Source: an uncultured Lachnospiraceae bacterium (lineage in GTDB: Bacteria > Bacillota > Clostridia > Lachnospirales > Lachnospiraceae). Taken from it: DNA of 46,375 nucleotides. The translations under genes were made by a program, and so were the position numbers. The DNA lies in NCBI GenBank assembly GCA_947385425.1, contig CANDKY010000014.1, positions 1 through 46,375 on the forward strand. The letters run 5' to 3'. Shown here piece by piece: positions 9,810-36,397 of this stretch. Each line of letters starts with the position of its first letter. The stretch's first letter is position 1. The notes under the pieces are model-generated. The model ran no database searches. It saw only the letters and a list, made by a program, of their open reading frames with translations, and was not told the DNA's origin.

Positions 9810-11273
9810 ATGAAAAATCTCACATTGAGAAATATTGCGGCGGCCTGCGGAGGAATATGGTATTGCGGGGGGAAGCGGCAGGCGGTGGCCGAAAGCGGAT
9901 ATGGCGGTACGTGCGGGGACAGAGGGAATGCTGCGGAAGAGAAGAAAGCGGCAGGGGAAAAAGAAGTAGCCGGTGTAGTCCTGGATTCCCGCCAGGTGGA
10001 GGAAGGATATCTTTTTATTGCCACAAAGGGGAAGCAGACGGACGGGCACTCCTTTATTCCGCAGGTATTGCAGAAAGGCGCGGCGGGTGTGGTGTGCGAA
10101 AAGCTCCCTGAGAAGATGGAAGATGGGGAGAATTTTATACTAGTGGAGGATTCTTTTCAGGCACTGAAGGATATCGCAAAATTTTACAGGGAACAGTTGG
10201 CGGTTAAAGTAGTAGGGATTACCGGAAGCGTAGGAAAAACCAGCACAAAAGAATTCATCGCTTCCGTGCTTGCACAGGGGTATCAGGTATTGAAGACCGA
10301 GGGGAATTTTAACAATGAAGTGGGGCTTCCGCTGACAATATTAAAAATCCGGGACTGCCATCAGATTGCCGTAGTGGAAATGGGAATCAGCGATTTCGGG
10401 GAAATGCACCGTCTAAGTGAGATTGCAAAACCGGATGTCTGTGTCTTGACGAATATCGGCCAGTGCCATTTGGAAAACCTGAAGTCACGGCAAGGAATAC
10501 TGAAGGCCAAAACGGAGATCTTTGACTTCATGGGGGAAGACGGCATTGTCTGCCTGAATGGTGACGATGATATGCTGGCCTCTGTGACGGAAGTGAAGGG
10601 AAGGAAGCCAATAACTTTCGGACGCGGGGAGAGCAATCGGATCCATGCGGGGGAAGTGGAGAACAGGGGGCTGTTTGGCAGCAGTGCCAGAATATATATA
10701 GGCGATAAGGAGTTTCATGCGGATATCCCTCTGCCGGGGGAGCATATGGTATACAATGCGCTGGCGGCGGCCTGCGTAGGAAACGTATTCGGGATAGGCG
10801 AAGAGGGAATATGCCGCGGGATAGCAAAGGTGGAAGCGGTGGGCGGCAGAAGCCATATTATACGGCTGGAGGATCGGGTAGTCATCGACGACTGCTATAA
10901 TGCCAACCCGGTTTCCGTATGTGCAGCCATTGACCTTTTGGATACGGCGCTGACAAGGAAAGTAGCCGTTTTGGGAGATATGTTTGAACTGGGGGAAGGG
11001 GAAAAGGAAATGCATGCGAAAGTAGGGGCCTATGCGGTGGAAAAAGGGATTGATGTCCTTATCTGCATCGGCGGCCTGGCAGAGTATATGTATAAGGAAG
11101 CCGGGAAAACTGCGGAAAGGCTGGGAATGCCGGCAGAGAATATCCATTATTTCCCCGGAAAAGAAGATTTCCTGGAAATATGGCACGATGTGCTGAAAAA
11201 GGGAGATACCATACTGATTAAGGCGAGCCACGGCATGGAATTTTCCAAAATCGTGAAAGAAATTGCGGAGTGA
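9810..11273 (+). CDS. murF: UDP-N-acetylmuramoyl-tripeptide--D-alanyl-D-alanine ligase
   Basis: Adds the D-Ala-D-Ala dipeptide to UDP-MurNAc-tripeptide, the last cytoplasmic step of the muropeptide. A 487-residue Mur ligase: an N-terminal substrate domain with DSRQVEEGYLFIA, a P-loop GITGSVGKTSTKEF (about residues 136-149), EGNFNNEVGLPLTIL, EMGISDFGEM, a central ATPase domain and a C-terminal domain with DDCYNANPVS. It starts at ATG 9810 after GGTAGGACAGG. An unusual Gly/Ala/Glu-rich stretch at about residues 22-50 makes the N-terminal domain longer than usual. If VanG is active, this enzyme must also accept D-Ala-D-Ser. Confidence 0.93.
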   Translation: MKNLTLRNIAAACGGIWYCGGKRQAVAESGYGGTCGDRGNAAEEKKAAGEKEVAGVVLDSRQVEEGYLFIATKGKQTDGHSFIPQVLQKGAAGVVCEKLPEKMEDGENFILVEDSFQALKDIAKFYREQLAVKVVGITGSVGKTSTKEFIASVLAQGYQVLKTEGNFNNEVGLPLTILKIRDCHQIAVVEMGISDFGEMHRLSEIAKPDVCVLTNIGQCHLENLKSRQGILKAKTEIFDFMGEDGIVCLNGDDDMLASVTEVKGRKPITFGRGESNRIHAGEVENRGLFGSSARIYIGDKEFHADIPLPGEHMVYNALAAACVGNVFGIGEEGICRGIAKVEAVGGRSHIIRLEDRVVIDDCYNANPVSVCAAIDLLDTALTRKVAVLGDMFELGEGEKEMHAKVGAYAVEKGIDVLICIGGLAEYMYKEAGKTAERLGMPAENIHYFPGKEDFLEIWHDVLKKGDTILIKASHGMEFSKIVKEIAE

Positions 11274-11275
11274 CG

Positions 11276-11404
11276 GTCGCGGAACTGGAACAAACAGCGA
11301 CTGCCGCTCCGATGCCCAGGAGACAGCGCGGCCATGCATTAGGGACGCGATATCTTCTGCAAGGCGTGGCATCGGAGAGGAAGTCGCGGGACTGGAATAG
11401 GAGA
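11276..11404 (+). other. Structured leader element, copy 1 (murF / polymerase gap)
   Basis: This element fills nearly the whole intergenic space. Hairpin P1 is GTCGC (11276-11280) pairing with GCGAC (11297-11301) around the loop GGAACTGGAACAAACA. Hairpin P2 has an outer stem 11307-11316/11368-11377 (10 bp, perfect), an inner stem of about 7+4 bp, and an apical region CCATGCATTAGGG. A second copy of the P1 5' part, GTCGCGGGACTGGAATAGG (from 11383), ends in the ribosome site of the next gene. The element before vanR (35521-35690) has the same loops with different, still-pairing stems, which is covariation. This suggests a structured RNA or a structured repeat. I know no named class that fits. 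Confidence 0.55.
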
Positions 11405-11411
11405 AATTTTA

Positions 11412-13031
11412 ATGGGCATGAAGAGGAACAGGGCGGGGGATAAGGCTGATTTATTTGACACGGTACGGGTGCAGGGAACGGAGATCTATTTGTTCCTGAT
11501 GCTCGCGGTGTATCCCCTATTTATGGGAAAGGGGTATGGGGAGCTGATTTATAGAAAGTGGGCATTATTCCTGTATGCTTCCATGGCTTTCGTGCTGGTC
11601 AGTGCTGTGAGCGGGGCTGCGGCATTTGCCGGAAAGAGGAGGGGCAGCAAAGGACAGCAGCCGAAATGGAAATTCGGGGACGGGTGGATTGCTGCGGACT
11701 GGTTTGTTTTTGCATATATGCTCAGCGTTATTATATCCTTTGCCGGCGCGGTTGATCACAAGACTGCTTTTTGGGGAATAGATACATGGTATATGGGGAT
11801 GGTGACGCAGATCTTGCTGGTGGGGATATATTTTGGGATTTCCAGGGGGTATAAAGAGTTAAAATACCTGGAATATCTGGCGGCGGCAGTAGTGATTATA
11901 GTAAACGGGATTATGATTCTGCAGCGCTTTGGCGTTAATGTGGCGCATCTCTATGACGGGTATGGGGAAGATGTAAGGCGTCTGTTTGTAACAACGCAGG
12001 GGCAGATAACATGGACCTCCAGCTATACCAACATACTTTTGGTGGCCGGGATGGGGATCTATTATCTGACGGAAAAGGGCCGTGAGAAAATCTTTCTGGG
12101 AATTTGCATCGGTTTCGGGTTCGGTGCAGGAATGCTCATAAATTGTGACAGCGGTATGATTGCGGTTGCCGCGGCGCTGATGGTGATGCTGTGGCTGGCG
12201 ATAGGAAGCAGGGAAAGGCTTCTTGCATTGACGGAAATGGTAATGGGGATGCTGGCGGCGACTGCAGTTGTGGGTATTTTTGAGAGGGTATTTGCCGGCA
12301 GGATGGTTCCGATAGATGCGGTATATTTGAAAGCGGCGCAGAGCTGGGTTGTATATGTGCTGCTGGCGGCAGCGGCTGTTTTCTATTTCCTGGTTAAAAA
12401 GGGCAGGATCCCCTGGGATGAGAAAGCGCGGACGGTAAAGACATTAAGAGGGATTTATATTTTCGGTGTCTGTCTGGGAATTATCGGCATGGTTATCCTT
12501 TTTATCCTGCATTGGAAGGGGTATTTTGCCGGTTCGCCCACGGAGACTTATTTCCGTTTTGATTATGAGTGGGGGAAGGGGAGAGGATTTATCTGGCGGG
12601 TCGGCGCGTCGGTATTTGCGGATTATAATGTGTGGAGAAAACTGTTTGGCTGCGGGCCGGACTGTTTTATGGTTTATTCCTATGATTTAATGGGAGAGGC
12701 CATGACTGAATTCTGGCCGACCCTGACGATAACCAATGTACATAATGAATGGTTTAGCTCAGTGGTCAACTATGGGATTGTAGGGGGAGCCATATATCTG
12801 GGGATTTTCGTGTCGGCGGCATACAGGCTGCTTAAGTCGGCCATAGAGAAGAACGGCGCGGTAATGTTCGGCATGGGACTGGCTGTAATCGGCTATATGG
12901 CACATGATCTGCTTTGCTATCAGCAGATTATCGGCACGCCATTGATTTTTATGCTGATGGGAATCGGTGTGGCGAAAGCCAGGGAGAAGGGCAGCCTGCA
13001 TTTAGGAACTGCAGAGCAGAAAAATAAGTGA
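11412..13031 (+). CDS. O-antigen ligase/polymerase-like membrane protein (Wzy_C)
   Basis: A 539-residue integral membrane protein with about twelve hydrophobic segments and a large extracytoplasmic loop between about residues 360 and 445. The signature HNEWFSSVVNYGIVGG (His about 444) matches the Wzy_C domain of O-antigen ligases and polymerases, which join undecaprenyl-linked glycans outside the membrane. In Gram-positive bacteria such proteins act in capsule, exopolysaccharide or wall-glycan transfer. Its substrate is not evident and no glycan operon surrounds it. The start is ATG 11412, with AGGAG in the tail of the structured element. It may be co-transcribed with murF. Confidence 0.75.
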   Translation: MGMKRNRAGDKADLFDTVRVQGTEIYLFLMLAVYPLFMGKGYGELIYRKWALFLYASMAFVLVSAVSGAAAFAGKRRGSKGQQPKWKFGDGWIAADWFVFAYMLSVIISFAGAVDHKTAFWGIDTWYMGMVTQILLVGIYFGISRGYKELKYLEYLAAAVVIIVNGIMILQRFGVNVAHLYDGYGEDVRRLFVTTQGQITWTSSYTNILLVAGMGIYYLTEKGREKIFLGICIGFGFGAGMLINCDSGMIAVAAALMVMLWLAIGSRERLLALTEMVMGMLAATAVVGIFERVFAGRMVPIDAVYLKAAQSWVVYVLLAAAAVFYFLVKKGRIPWDEKARTVKTLRGIYIFGVCLGIIGMVILFILHWKGYFAGSPTETYFRFDYEWGKGRGFIWRVGASVFADYNVWRKLFGCGPDCFMVYSYDLMGEAMTEFWPTLTITNVHNEWFSSVVNYGIVGGAIYLGIFVSAAYRLLKSAIEKNGAVMFGMGLAVIGYMAHDLLCYQQIIGTPLIFMLMGIGVAKAREKGSLHLGTAEQKNK

Positions 13032-35516: not shown

Positions 35517-35520
35517 GGGG

Positions 35521-35690
35521 GACGGAACTGGAAACAGCATTTATATGGCACTTTGCATATGGATGCGGAACTGGAAAACAGCATCCATCTGCAAAGTGCC
35601 GCAGAGAGATAATTGCCCATGTATTAGGGGCAACTATCTCTCTGCGGGATATGGGCACTTTGCATATGGATGCGGTACTGGAATAGGATC
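35521..35690 (+). other. Structured leader element, copy 2 (cls / vanR gap)
   Basis: This element fills the cls-vanR gap and ends in the vanR ribosome site. P1: GGATGC (35561-35566) pairs with GCATCC (35581-35586) around the loop GGAACTGGAAAACA. P2: 35601-35611 pairs with 35635-35645 (GCAGAGAGATA), with TTGCCC/GGGCAA above it and an apical ATGTATTAG loop. The 3' part GGTACTGGAATAGGA matches copy 1. A 33-bp segment occurs twice (35544-35576 and 35650-35683), and the inverted segment 35581-35600 can pair with either, so two exclusive folds are possible. An extra GGAACTGGAA lies at 35524. Confidence 0.6.
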
Positions 35691-35695
35691 TTTTT

Positions 35696-36397
35696 ATGGC
35701 AGATAAGATAGTGGTAGTGGATGACGAGCCGGAAATTGCGGATTTGATTGAGTTATATTTGAGAAATGAGAATTATGAGGTATACAAATTTTATTCGGGA
35801 AGCAAAGCGCTTGGTTTCTTTCAGGAGAATGAACCGGATCTTGCCATCCTGGATATTATGCTGCCGGACATTAACGGGTTTGCGCTGTGCAAACAGATCC
35901 GGGAGCGGTATACGTATCCTATTATTATGCTGACGGCAAAGGATGAGGAGATAGATAAGATCACGGGGCTGTCGCTGGGGGCGGATGATTATATCACCAA
36001 GCCTTTCCGCCCGTTGGAGATGGTAGCCAGGGTAAAGGCGCAGCTTCGCAGGTATAAAAGGTATAATCATCCGCAGGCAGCGGAAGTGCCGGACTCTGTC
36101 ATTGAGTATTCCGGGCTGGTTATGGACGTAAGGACACATGAGTGCCTGTTGGACGAAAAGGCGCTCACCCTTACCCCTACGGAATTTGAGATACTGAGGA
36201 TCCTTCTGGAGCATAAGGGGGAAGTGGTGAGTGCGGAACGGTTGTTCCATGAGATATGGAAGGACGAGTATTACAGCAAAAGCAATAATACGATTACGGT
36301 ACATATCCGTCATCTGCGGGAGAAAATGGCGGATACGATAGAAAATCCGAAGTATATCAGGACAATATGGGGAGTGGGGTACAAAATTGGAGGATAA
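35696..36397 (+). CDS. vanR: VanR-type response regulator (OmpR family)
   Basis: Activates the resistance genes when phosphorylated by VanS. 233 residues: a receiver with VVVDDEPEI, phospho-acceptor Asp53 in LAILDIMLPD, MLTAKDEE and the Lys in DDYITKPFRP. A winged-helix OmpR DNA-binding domain follows (TLTPTEFEILRILLEHKGEVVSAE..., NTITVHIRHLREK, IWGVGYKI). Its start lies nine bases after AATAGGA at the end of the structured element. The gene overlaps vanS. The order R-S before the ligase matches vanG-type clusters of Clostridia. Confidence 0.9.
   Translation: MADKIVVVDDEPEIADLIELYLRNENYEVYKFYSGSKALGFFQENEPDLAILDIMLPDINGFALCKQIRERYTYPIIMLTAKDEEIDKITGLSLGADDYITKPFRPLEMVARVKAQLRRYKRYNHPQAAEVPDSVIEYSGLVMDVRTHECLLDEKALTLTPTEFEILRILLEHKGEVVSAERLFHEIWKDEYYSKSNNTITVHIRHLREKMADTIENPKYIRTIWGVGYKIGG

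Follow-up and report, generated by a model that had tools for sequence, protein, structure and literature searches.

A candidate mobile structured repeat docked at ribosome sites in a Lachnospiraceae genome

The genome of an uncultured Lachnospiraceae bacterium contains a real family of small interspersed repeats, undescribed in the literature searched (supplements were outside the scope of that search), with a landing place that is unusually strict and precise for such a repeat. The family is probably a new, non-autonomous, dispersed structured repeat docked at native ribosome sites, and is considered here as a candidate mobile element. Small interspersed repeats are known in many bacteria; a border coinciding with native ribosome sites in most places would be a new targeting rule. 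The repeat also forms a structured leader before core genes of Lachnospiraceae, which bears on annotation and expression work, and its dozens of private self-complementary stems provide a natural test of selection on RNA versus palindrome correction at the DNA level.

Two copies in the window and the plan of the unit

The window, the whole stretch of 46,375 nucleotides analyzed, contains two copies of the repeat, one between murF and a gene called "Wzy-like" in a preliminary description of this DNA, and one before vanR. Their features are:

11276..11296, + strand: 3'-arm remnant (GTCGC) of a lost upstream unit, with linker GGAACTGGAACAAACA (direct reading)
11294..11398, + strand: complete subtype I unit, with apical CCATGCATTAGGG at 11332-11344 and an 8-nt 3' bulge at 11360-11367
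11399..11403, + strand: Shine-Dalgarno sequence AGGAG of the Wzy-like gene, flush with the unit end (direct reading)
11412..13031, + strand: downstream gene of 539 aa, "Wzy-like" being the label of the preliminary description
35524..35577, + strand: linker and collapsed unit with its inner part missing, second linker from 35567 (reading; folds as a small hairpin)
35578..35684, + strand: complete subtype I unit (CCATGTATTAGGG; R1 match)
35685..35689, + strand: Shine-Dalgarno sequence AGGAT of the VanR-family gene (direct reading)
35696..36397, + strand: VanR-ABDEGLN family response regulator (NCBIfam NF033117, 369.2 bits, cut-off 350)

Direct reading of the first copy gives the murF stop codon TGA (11271-11273), GTCGC (11276-11280), linker GGAACTGGAACAAACA (11281-11296), GCGAC (11297-11301), the apical CCATGCATTAGGG and a second GTCGC (11383-11387); GGGACTGGAATAGGAG reaches 11403 and the ATG of the Wzy-like gene lies at 11412. 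The last three bases of the linker are also the first bases of the unit. In the copy before vanR the same order of elements is present twice, as one collapsed and one full unit. Both copies match the covariance model R1, the murF unit with 82.2 bits (E 1.1e-16; itself among the 45 units used for building R1) and the vanR unit with 83.3 bits (E 5.6e-17; not among the units used), and the two (11276-11404 and 35524-35688) are copies of one repeat family, as had been proposed. Each folds better than its shuffled counterparts, with z scores of −4.35 for 11276-11404 and −8.21 for 35517-35697 and 0 of 200 shuffles as good in either case.

The preliminary description had divided the element into two stems, P1 and P2. 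Its order of parts was retained, and P1 as a stem of its own was not, being mostly the remnant of a lost unit's 3' arm joined to the linker and the next unit's 5' arm. The minimum-energy fold at the murF copy is a long hairpin, GCGAC...GTCGC (11297-11387), whose 3' side carries an 8-nt bulge, without P1; a P1 hairpin (11276-11301) would pair the leftover 3'-arm copy and compete for the 5' arm of the long hairpin. Comparable 3'-arm remnants were also present at other sites of the genome. Collapsed units that keep the outer stem and have lost the inner part were observed at loci L013 and L027 and at 35537-35566 in the window.

A unit is approximately 105 nt long and forms one long hairpin with a bulge of 7-8 nt on the 3' side. 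Its 5' half consists of ACA, GC and an outer arm of approximately 15-18 nt that is private to the site, followed by a conserved inner stem resembling CCCGGAAG; the apex takes two forms, like CTGGCCATGCATTAGGGACAG or GGATTTCAGGACGCAGGAGCGGCCGGAAATCC, and the 3' half runs through the other side of the inner stem, the bulge and the complement of the outer arm to GCGGNACTGGAAT. The constant letters are ACAGC and GCGGNACTGGAAT, and where units stand in tandem, a number of A residues connect the constant end with the next ACAGC. At one locus (L044) the 5' and 3' arms seem to come from different units, as after recombination within a run.

The outer stems are inverted repeats that differ in sequence between sites yet remain complementary. 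In an alignment of 45 rows, 91.7% of cells pair, 24 of 27 pairs are changed on both sides, and covariation reaches 0.703 compared with 0.201 in shuffles (0 of 500 as high) and at most 0.161 when slid, a result that leans towards pairing because the rows were chosen partly for arm pairing. The covariation between stems proposed earlier from two copies is also supported on 124 units found by sequence alone, where 9.58 of 12 outer positions are Watson-Crick versus 5.25 with the arms re-dealt (best of 200 re-deals, 5.65); 14 of the 124 have five pairs or fewer. Complementarity between diverging arms could reflect a selected function or DNA-level palindrome correction, instead of parasitism. Mismatches in the outer stems, counted in one unit from each of 88 clusters, comprised 82 G-U versus 19 A-C; on the sense strand they were strongly purine-purine, with 84 G-A versus 16 C-T and 54 G-G versus 3 C-C. 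The excess of G-U over A-C was considered as a sign of RNA-level selection and was significant at first, and was undone by this general purine bias of mismatches.

Copy number and placement in the genome

In the window alone, ACTGGAATAGGA occurs exactly twice, and with up to two mismatches 8 matches were counted where 4.11 would be expected (a number attained by 7 of 100 shuffles), which is near chance and makes the window by itself weak evidence for a repeat family. The genome-wide motif search called for in the preliminary description recovered 75 exact copies of ACTGGAATAGGA from the 4.42-Mb assembly, that of a Lachnospiraceae-like, gut-type bacterium, versus 0 for the reversed pattern; about a dozen of these loci do not have the full hairpin and are remnants, collapsed hairpins or lone end pieces. 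The model R1 derives from 45 last units: of 74 located, 46 came through a filter for length and arm pairing, and one of these, L045, was removed. The model ends at GGAAT, with nothing of the ribosome site included. At an E value of 0.001 or lower it detected at least 149 units in this genome, with scores up to 105 bits. They form 89 clusters, each confined to one strand; 48 hold a single unit, 27 hold two, 10 three, 3 four and 1 five. Since genome-scale R1 searches scored few candidates per genome (150 in this genome and 96, 13 and 10 elsewhere), the copy numbers and carrier counts given here are lower bounds. A chance motif is excluded by the exact and control counts together with the model matches.

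Rfam 15 at the gathering score yielded 0 matches in the window and 0 in 16 further loci, in agreement with the earlier statement that no named RNA family was known with these loops. Below the cut-off, the murF copy gave nothing and the vanR copy gave 32 matches, mainly microRNA hairpins far under their own cut-offs. Further copies and carrier relatives were found, and with them neither of the outcomes named in advance as refuting the element, an Rfam match or a lack of other copies and of conservation, was observed. The main text of PMC6429828 makes no mention of Lachnospiraceae.

Placement was analyzed on 86 clusters, the other 3 of 89 lying at contig ends. A start codon on the same strand and a Shine-Dalgarno core occurred within 30 nt of 78 of the 86, compared with 634 of 20,000 random positions (3.2%), and the earlier placing of copies at start codons holds; in 65 of these 78 the base directly after the unit is already the first of the core. 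At most sites the constant end of the last unit, ...GGNACTGGAAT, directly adjoins the Shine-Dalgarno sequence of a gene on its own strand. This adjacency was not built into R1, because the model stops before AGGA; all units used for building it had AGGA next, and it then found others without AGGA. AGGAG was the commonest 5-mer after last units (51 of 89), and after internal units (n = 60) the 12 5-mers listed, which cover 53 of the 60, are linker words with AGGAG not among them. At some sites the ribosome word is weaker than AGGAG. The eight misses were C1, C10, C51:15759, C55, C58, C93, C111 and C160; by eye, five of these have a start that fails the rule on length, distance or ribosome word, and within 30 nt of C10, C51:15759 and C93 no start codon is evident.

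The presence of AGGAGG is not enough to explain where the repeat is found: in the same stretches, 45 of 140 unit-free AGGAGG words precede a start. As insertions inside genes would be lost, sequence targeting together with selection may account for the placement. The longest neighboring upstream frame was on the same strand (ending within 300 nt) for 60 clusters, on the opposite strand for 23 and on neither for 3, with too little DNA in the remaining 3.

The 80 downstream proteins listed are varied by eye. An NCBIfam scan of eight downstream genes named seven, all of different functions and including gatA, IMP dehydrogenase, adenylosuccinate synthase, clpP, rex and dxr; the Wzy-like gene (11412..13031) had no match at E 1e-20. 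A gene-specific (metabolite) riboswitch was rejected, the downstream genes not being of one pathway, and the suggestion that the element is a cis-regulatory RNA specific to particular genes appears unlikely for the same unrelatedness. In the 67 last units with AGGA, AGGAG or GGAGG in the next 8 nt, the predicted mean unpaired probability of the 6 nt after the unit was 0.66 with the unit, 0.51 with the unit shuffled and 0.79 without it, and the real unit left them more open than the shuffled one in 46 of 67. According to these folds the unit would neither hide nor open the ribosome site.

The observations on stems and placement also bear on a functional leader, cis-regulatory or mRNA-stabilizing, in which selection keeps the hairpins for mRNA 5'-end protection, ribosome-site insulation or a global RNA-binding protein. 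Such a leader would be compatible with arms that diverge yet pair, with the sense orientation and ribosome sites at 78 of 86 clusters, and with a ribosome site more open than next to a shuffled unit. In addition, the terminal GGAACUGGAAUAGGAGG holds several GGA motifs, the kind bound by CsrA, which are putative CsrA-type sites. However, the same 6 nt are still more open with no unit at all, the genes share no evident pathway and are found without the repeat in related species, and the wobble comparison is unclean, the purine bias explaining much of the G-U excess. We regard a leader maintained for its function as somewhat unlikely, and as a rival to a docked, dispersed repeat.

Corresponding sites in relatives and distribution of carriers

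Seven sites in two long stretches were compared with eight relatives; two of the sites (C11:12118 and C11:22837) gave no comparison. At C11:19637 the unit is absent in all eight relatives and AGGAGG is present at the same place, so that here the repeat is docked at a ribosome site that was already there, contrary to the earlier idea of an element that provides ribosome sites. C11:10582 is empty in 7 of 7 relatives and C2:111147 in 8 of 8. C2:106460 is also filled in G002, G003 and G013, is empty in G004, G005, G009 and G015, and shows a footprint without hairpin in G001. C2:101156 carries 3 units in G009, is empty in G001, G002, G003, G004 and G015, and is unreadable in G013. R1 agrees with these site readings and also finds a copy in G001, G002 and G003 elsewhere in the C2:101156 stretch. 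In a further genus, G044 carries runs at two sites, both of them empty in G330 (where the genes at one are 26 nt apart) and one of them empty in G331. In these sequence comparisons the ribosome site exists without the repeat, and presence differs in both directions between related species; the flanks compared are only about 67-83% identical and are too diverged for a target-site duplication to be definable at the empty sites read.

For the copies in the window, murF was present in 71 named loci, five of which have a Wzy-like gene beside it, and the gap in those five contains no unit. One of these repeat-free gene pairs (L143) reads AGGAG there, before the start, and the AGGAG at 11399..11403 is accordingly judged to be a native ribosome site. 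L143, from a named uncultured Lachnospiraceae assembly, has a weaker copy (34.2 bits) at 212-314. The best match of vanR among 7 relatives, in G009 (78%), has AGGAT before its start and no unit; in G009 the best matches of vanR and of its upstream gene are on the same contig, about 7 kb from each other. At C2:106460 (L233) and its orthologs, the last bases of the upstream gene read GAACCGGAATAA or similar in several relatives and resemble the repeat linker GGAACTGGAATAA; the 5' junction at this site may use short homology.

The R1 search detected at least 6 carriers among 16 genomes of the genus and none among 25 others. A family survey with one genome per genus detected at least 7 carriers among 299, own genome included, and in a class survey of low sensitivity the own genome was the sole carrier detected among 391. 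The same unit plan was found in 18 regions from five other genera; by eye, 15 of the 18 have a purine-rich ribosome word and a start next, and of the exceptions L239 runs straight into ATG, and L248 and L249 into a further unit. A phage origin was also considered and set aside: the one 18-nt pattern match in viral contigs (R1 E 0.074), on the strand opposite a long open frame, was judged a chance match.

Of the two ideas in the preliminary description, a cis-regulatory RNA or a mobile structured repeat supplying ribosome sites, the mobile repeat is the better. A new structured repeat is thus what is retained from that interpretation, without the supply of ribosome sites and without gene-specific regulation. 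As a docked, dispersed element, the repeat would have spread by placing copies of itself immediately 5' of Shine-Dalgarno sequences that were already present. Insertion in this part of the spacer would be safe in that it spares the start codon and the ribosome site and leaves the hairpin upstream of both. It would then be transcribed within leader or intercistronic mRNA, where it may have a general effect, such as altered mRNA stability, and would not act as the switch of one pathway.

Borders, candidate enzymes and known repeat systems

The 3' border of the repeat is fixed and its 5' border is variable, the remnant that precedes the first complete unit measuring 0-39 nt in 72 of 86 clusters and at least 40 nt in the other 14. 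A fixed 3' junction combined with graded 5' truncation is the pattern of a target-primed retroposon, although later deletion could mimic it, and the truncated 5' ends could also result from later deletion at hairpins. Tentatively, and with less assurance than for the docked repeat itself, copying may proceed from an anchored 3' end, as it does for a retroposon. In this scheme AGGAG would pair with the target, and synthesis would enter the unit and stop in the next hairpin, which would explain both fixed 3' and truncated 5' ends. Short repeats of ACTGGAATAAA or similar, slip-like in their junction, were seen at the 3' end or in linkers at L031, L057, L070, C51:15759, C63 and C160. Copies are more alike in G044 (median nearest-neighbor identity 0.85, n = 11) than in G000 (0.75, n = 87), which suggests more recent activity in G044.

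Retroposition proper, by a group II intron-type or other reverse transcriptase acting on mRNA leaders and primed at ribosome sites, appears rather unlikely. It would fit the fixed 3' junction, the 5' truncation mainly in the first 40 nt, where a hairpin would halt synthesis, the short ACTGGAATAAA repeats at some 3' ends and the likeness of the G044 copies. PF00078 (RVT_1) occurs in 9 of 17 genomes, and within the genus in 4 of 5 carriers versus 2 of 6 non-carriers; this lean does not reach significance (Fisher 0.24). However, RVT_1 was not found in G009 (67 copies, 83% complete) and was found only once in G000, and 12 fetched RVT_1 loci contain no unit at E 0.01 (one 14.5-bit match, E 0.2). 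A bacterial retroposon of SINE type, whose RNA ending in AGGAG would prime on the Shine-Dalgarno complement of another gene and whose synthesis would stall in a hairpin, is doubtful; if true, every copy would have a fixed 3' border at a ribosome site and a ragged 5' border.

Mobilization of a REP-like repeat by a Y1 (HUH) transposase, for which the opposite-strand CCTCCT would be the target flank, is considerably less probable. IS200/IS605 elements insert beside a short target word, and the bulged hairpin, the oriented insertion, the fixed short flank word on one side and two Y1 matches in the own genome would all suit such an enzyme. PF01797 (Y1) is present in 13 of 21 genomes, but within the genus 4 of the 5 carriers and also 6 of the 8 non-carriers searched have it; G001 (97% complete, a draft of 420 contigs, 21 copies) has no match, 10 fetched Y1 loci contain no unit, and the heterogeneous 5' ends misfit an enzyme that cuts both ends. 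The Y1 transposase was consequently rejected as mobilizer, with no link to carriers and no unit beside the fetched loci. Y1 transposase and reverse transcriptase each went undetected in at least one of the carriers tested, and the enzyme search, which covered these two families, identified no autonomous element. Ordinary terminators or chance palindromes mistaken for a family are practically out of the question, since, although intergenic hairpins are common and the window motif count is near chance at two mismatches, the 75 exact 12-mers versus 0 in the control and 149 model matches up to 105 bits oppose them and a ribosome site, not a T-run, follows the hairpin.

The dispersed repeat docked at ribosome sites can be compared with several known systems. 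The MIRU repeats of Mycobacterium are short, lie where genes of an operon meet, share the orientation of those genes and insert at stop/start overlaps with a small target duplication; here, unlike MIRU, it is the ribosome site that forms the fixed border, and the 5' border is variable. REP and BIME sequences with their RAYT transposase are bulged palindromes, intergenic and in tandem, with a conserved tetranucleotide GTAG at the hairpin foot. To our knowledge REP sequences are not tied to ribosome sites, and, unlike REP/RAYT, the present repeat has no Y1 transposase link in the genomes searched. Eukaryotic SINE-type retroposons have a fixed 3' end at the target and truncated 5' ends; the borders here are SINE-like, with no reverse transcriptase linked to the repeat in the searches made. 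By analogy, the repeat appears to work like a BOX- or MIRU-type repeat and is filed in none of the families compared.

In the portion of PMC3049150 that deals with them, MITEs such as RUP are non-autonomous, base-paired and present in many copies; the present repeat seems to differ from them, its outer stems being inverted repeats that vary from site to site. The same portion presents BOX of Streptococcus pneumoniae as small, highly structured and present in many copies, with tandem inner modules and possible co-transcription with its neighbors, and its authors call it parasitic and non-autonomous (PMC3049150). The likeness to BOX as portrayed there lies in a small structured repeat with tandem modules and many copies. 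By that description BOX is set apart, being composed of boxA and boxC ends with variable copies of boxB, whereas here a single hairpin unit repeats, its outer stems are private to the site and its last unit is docked at the native ribosome site.
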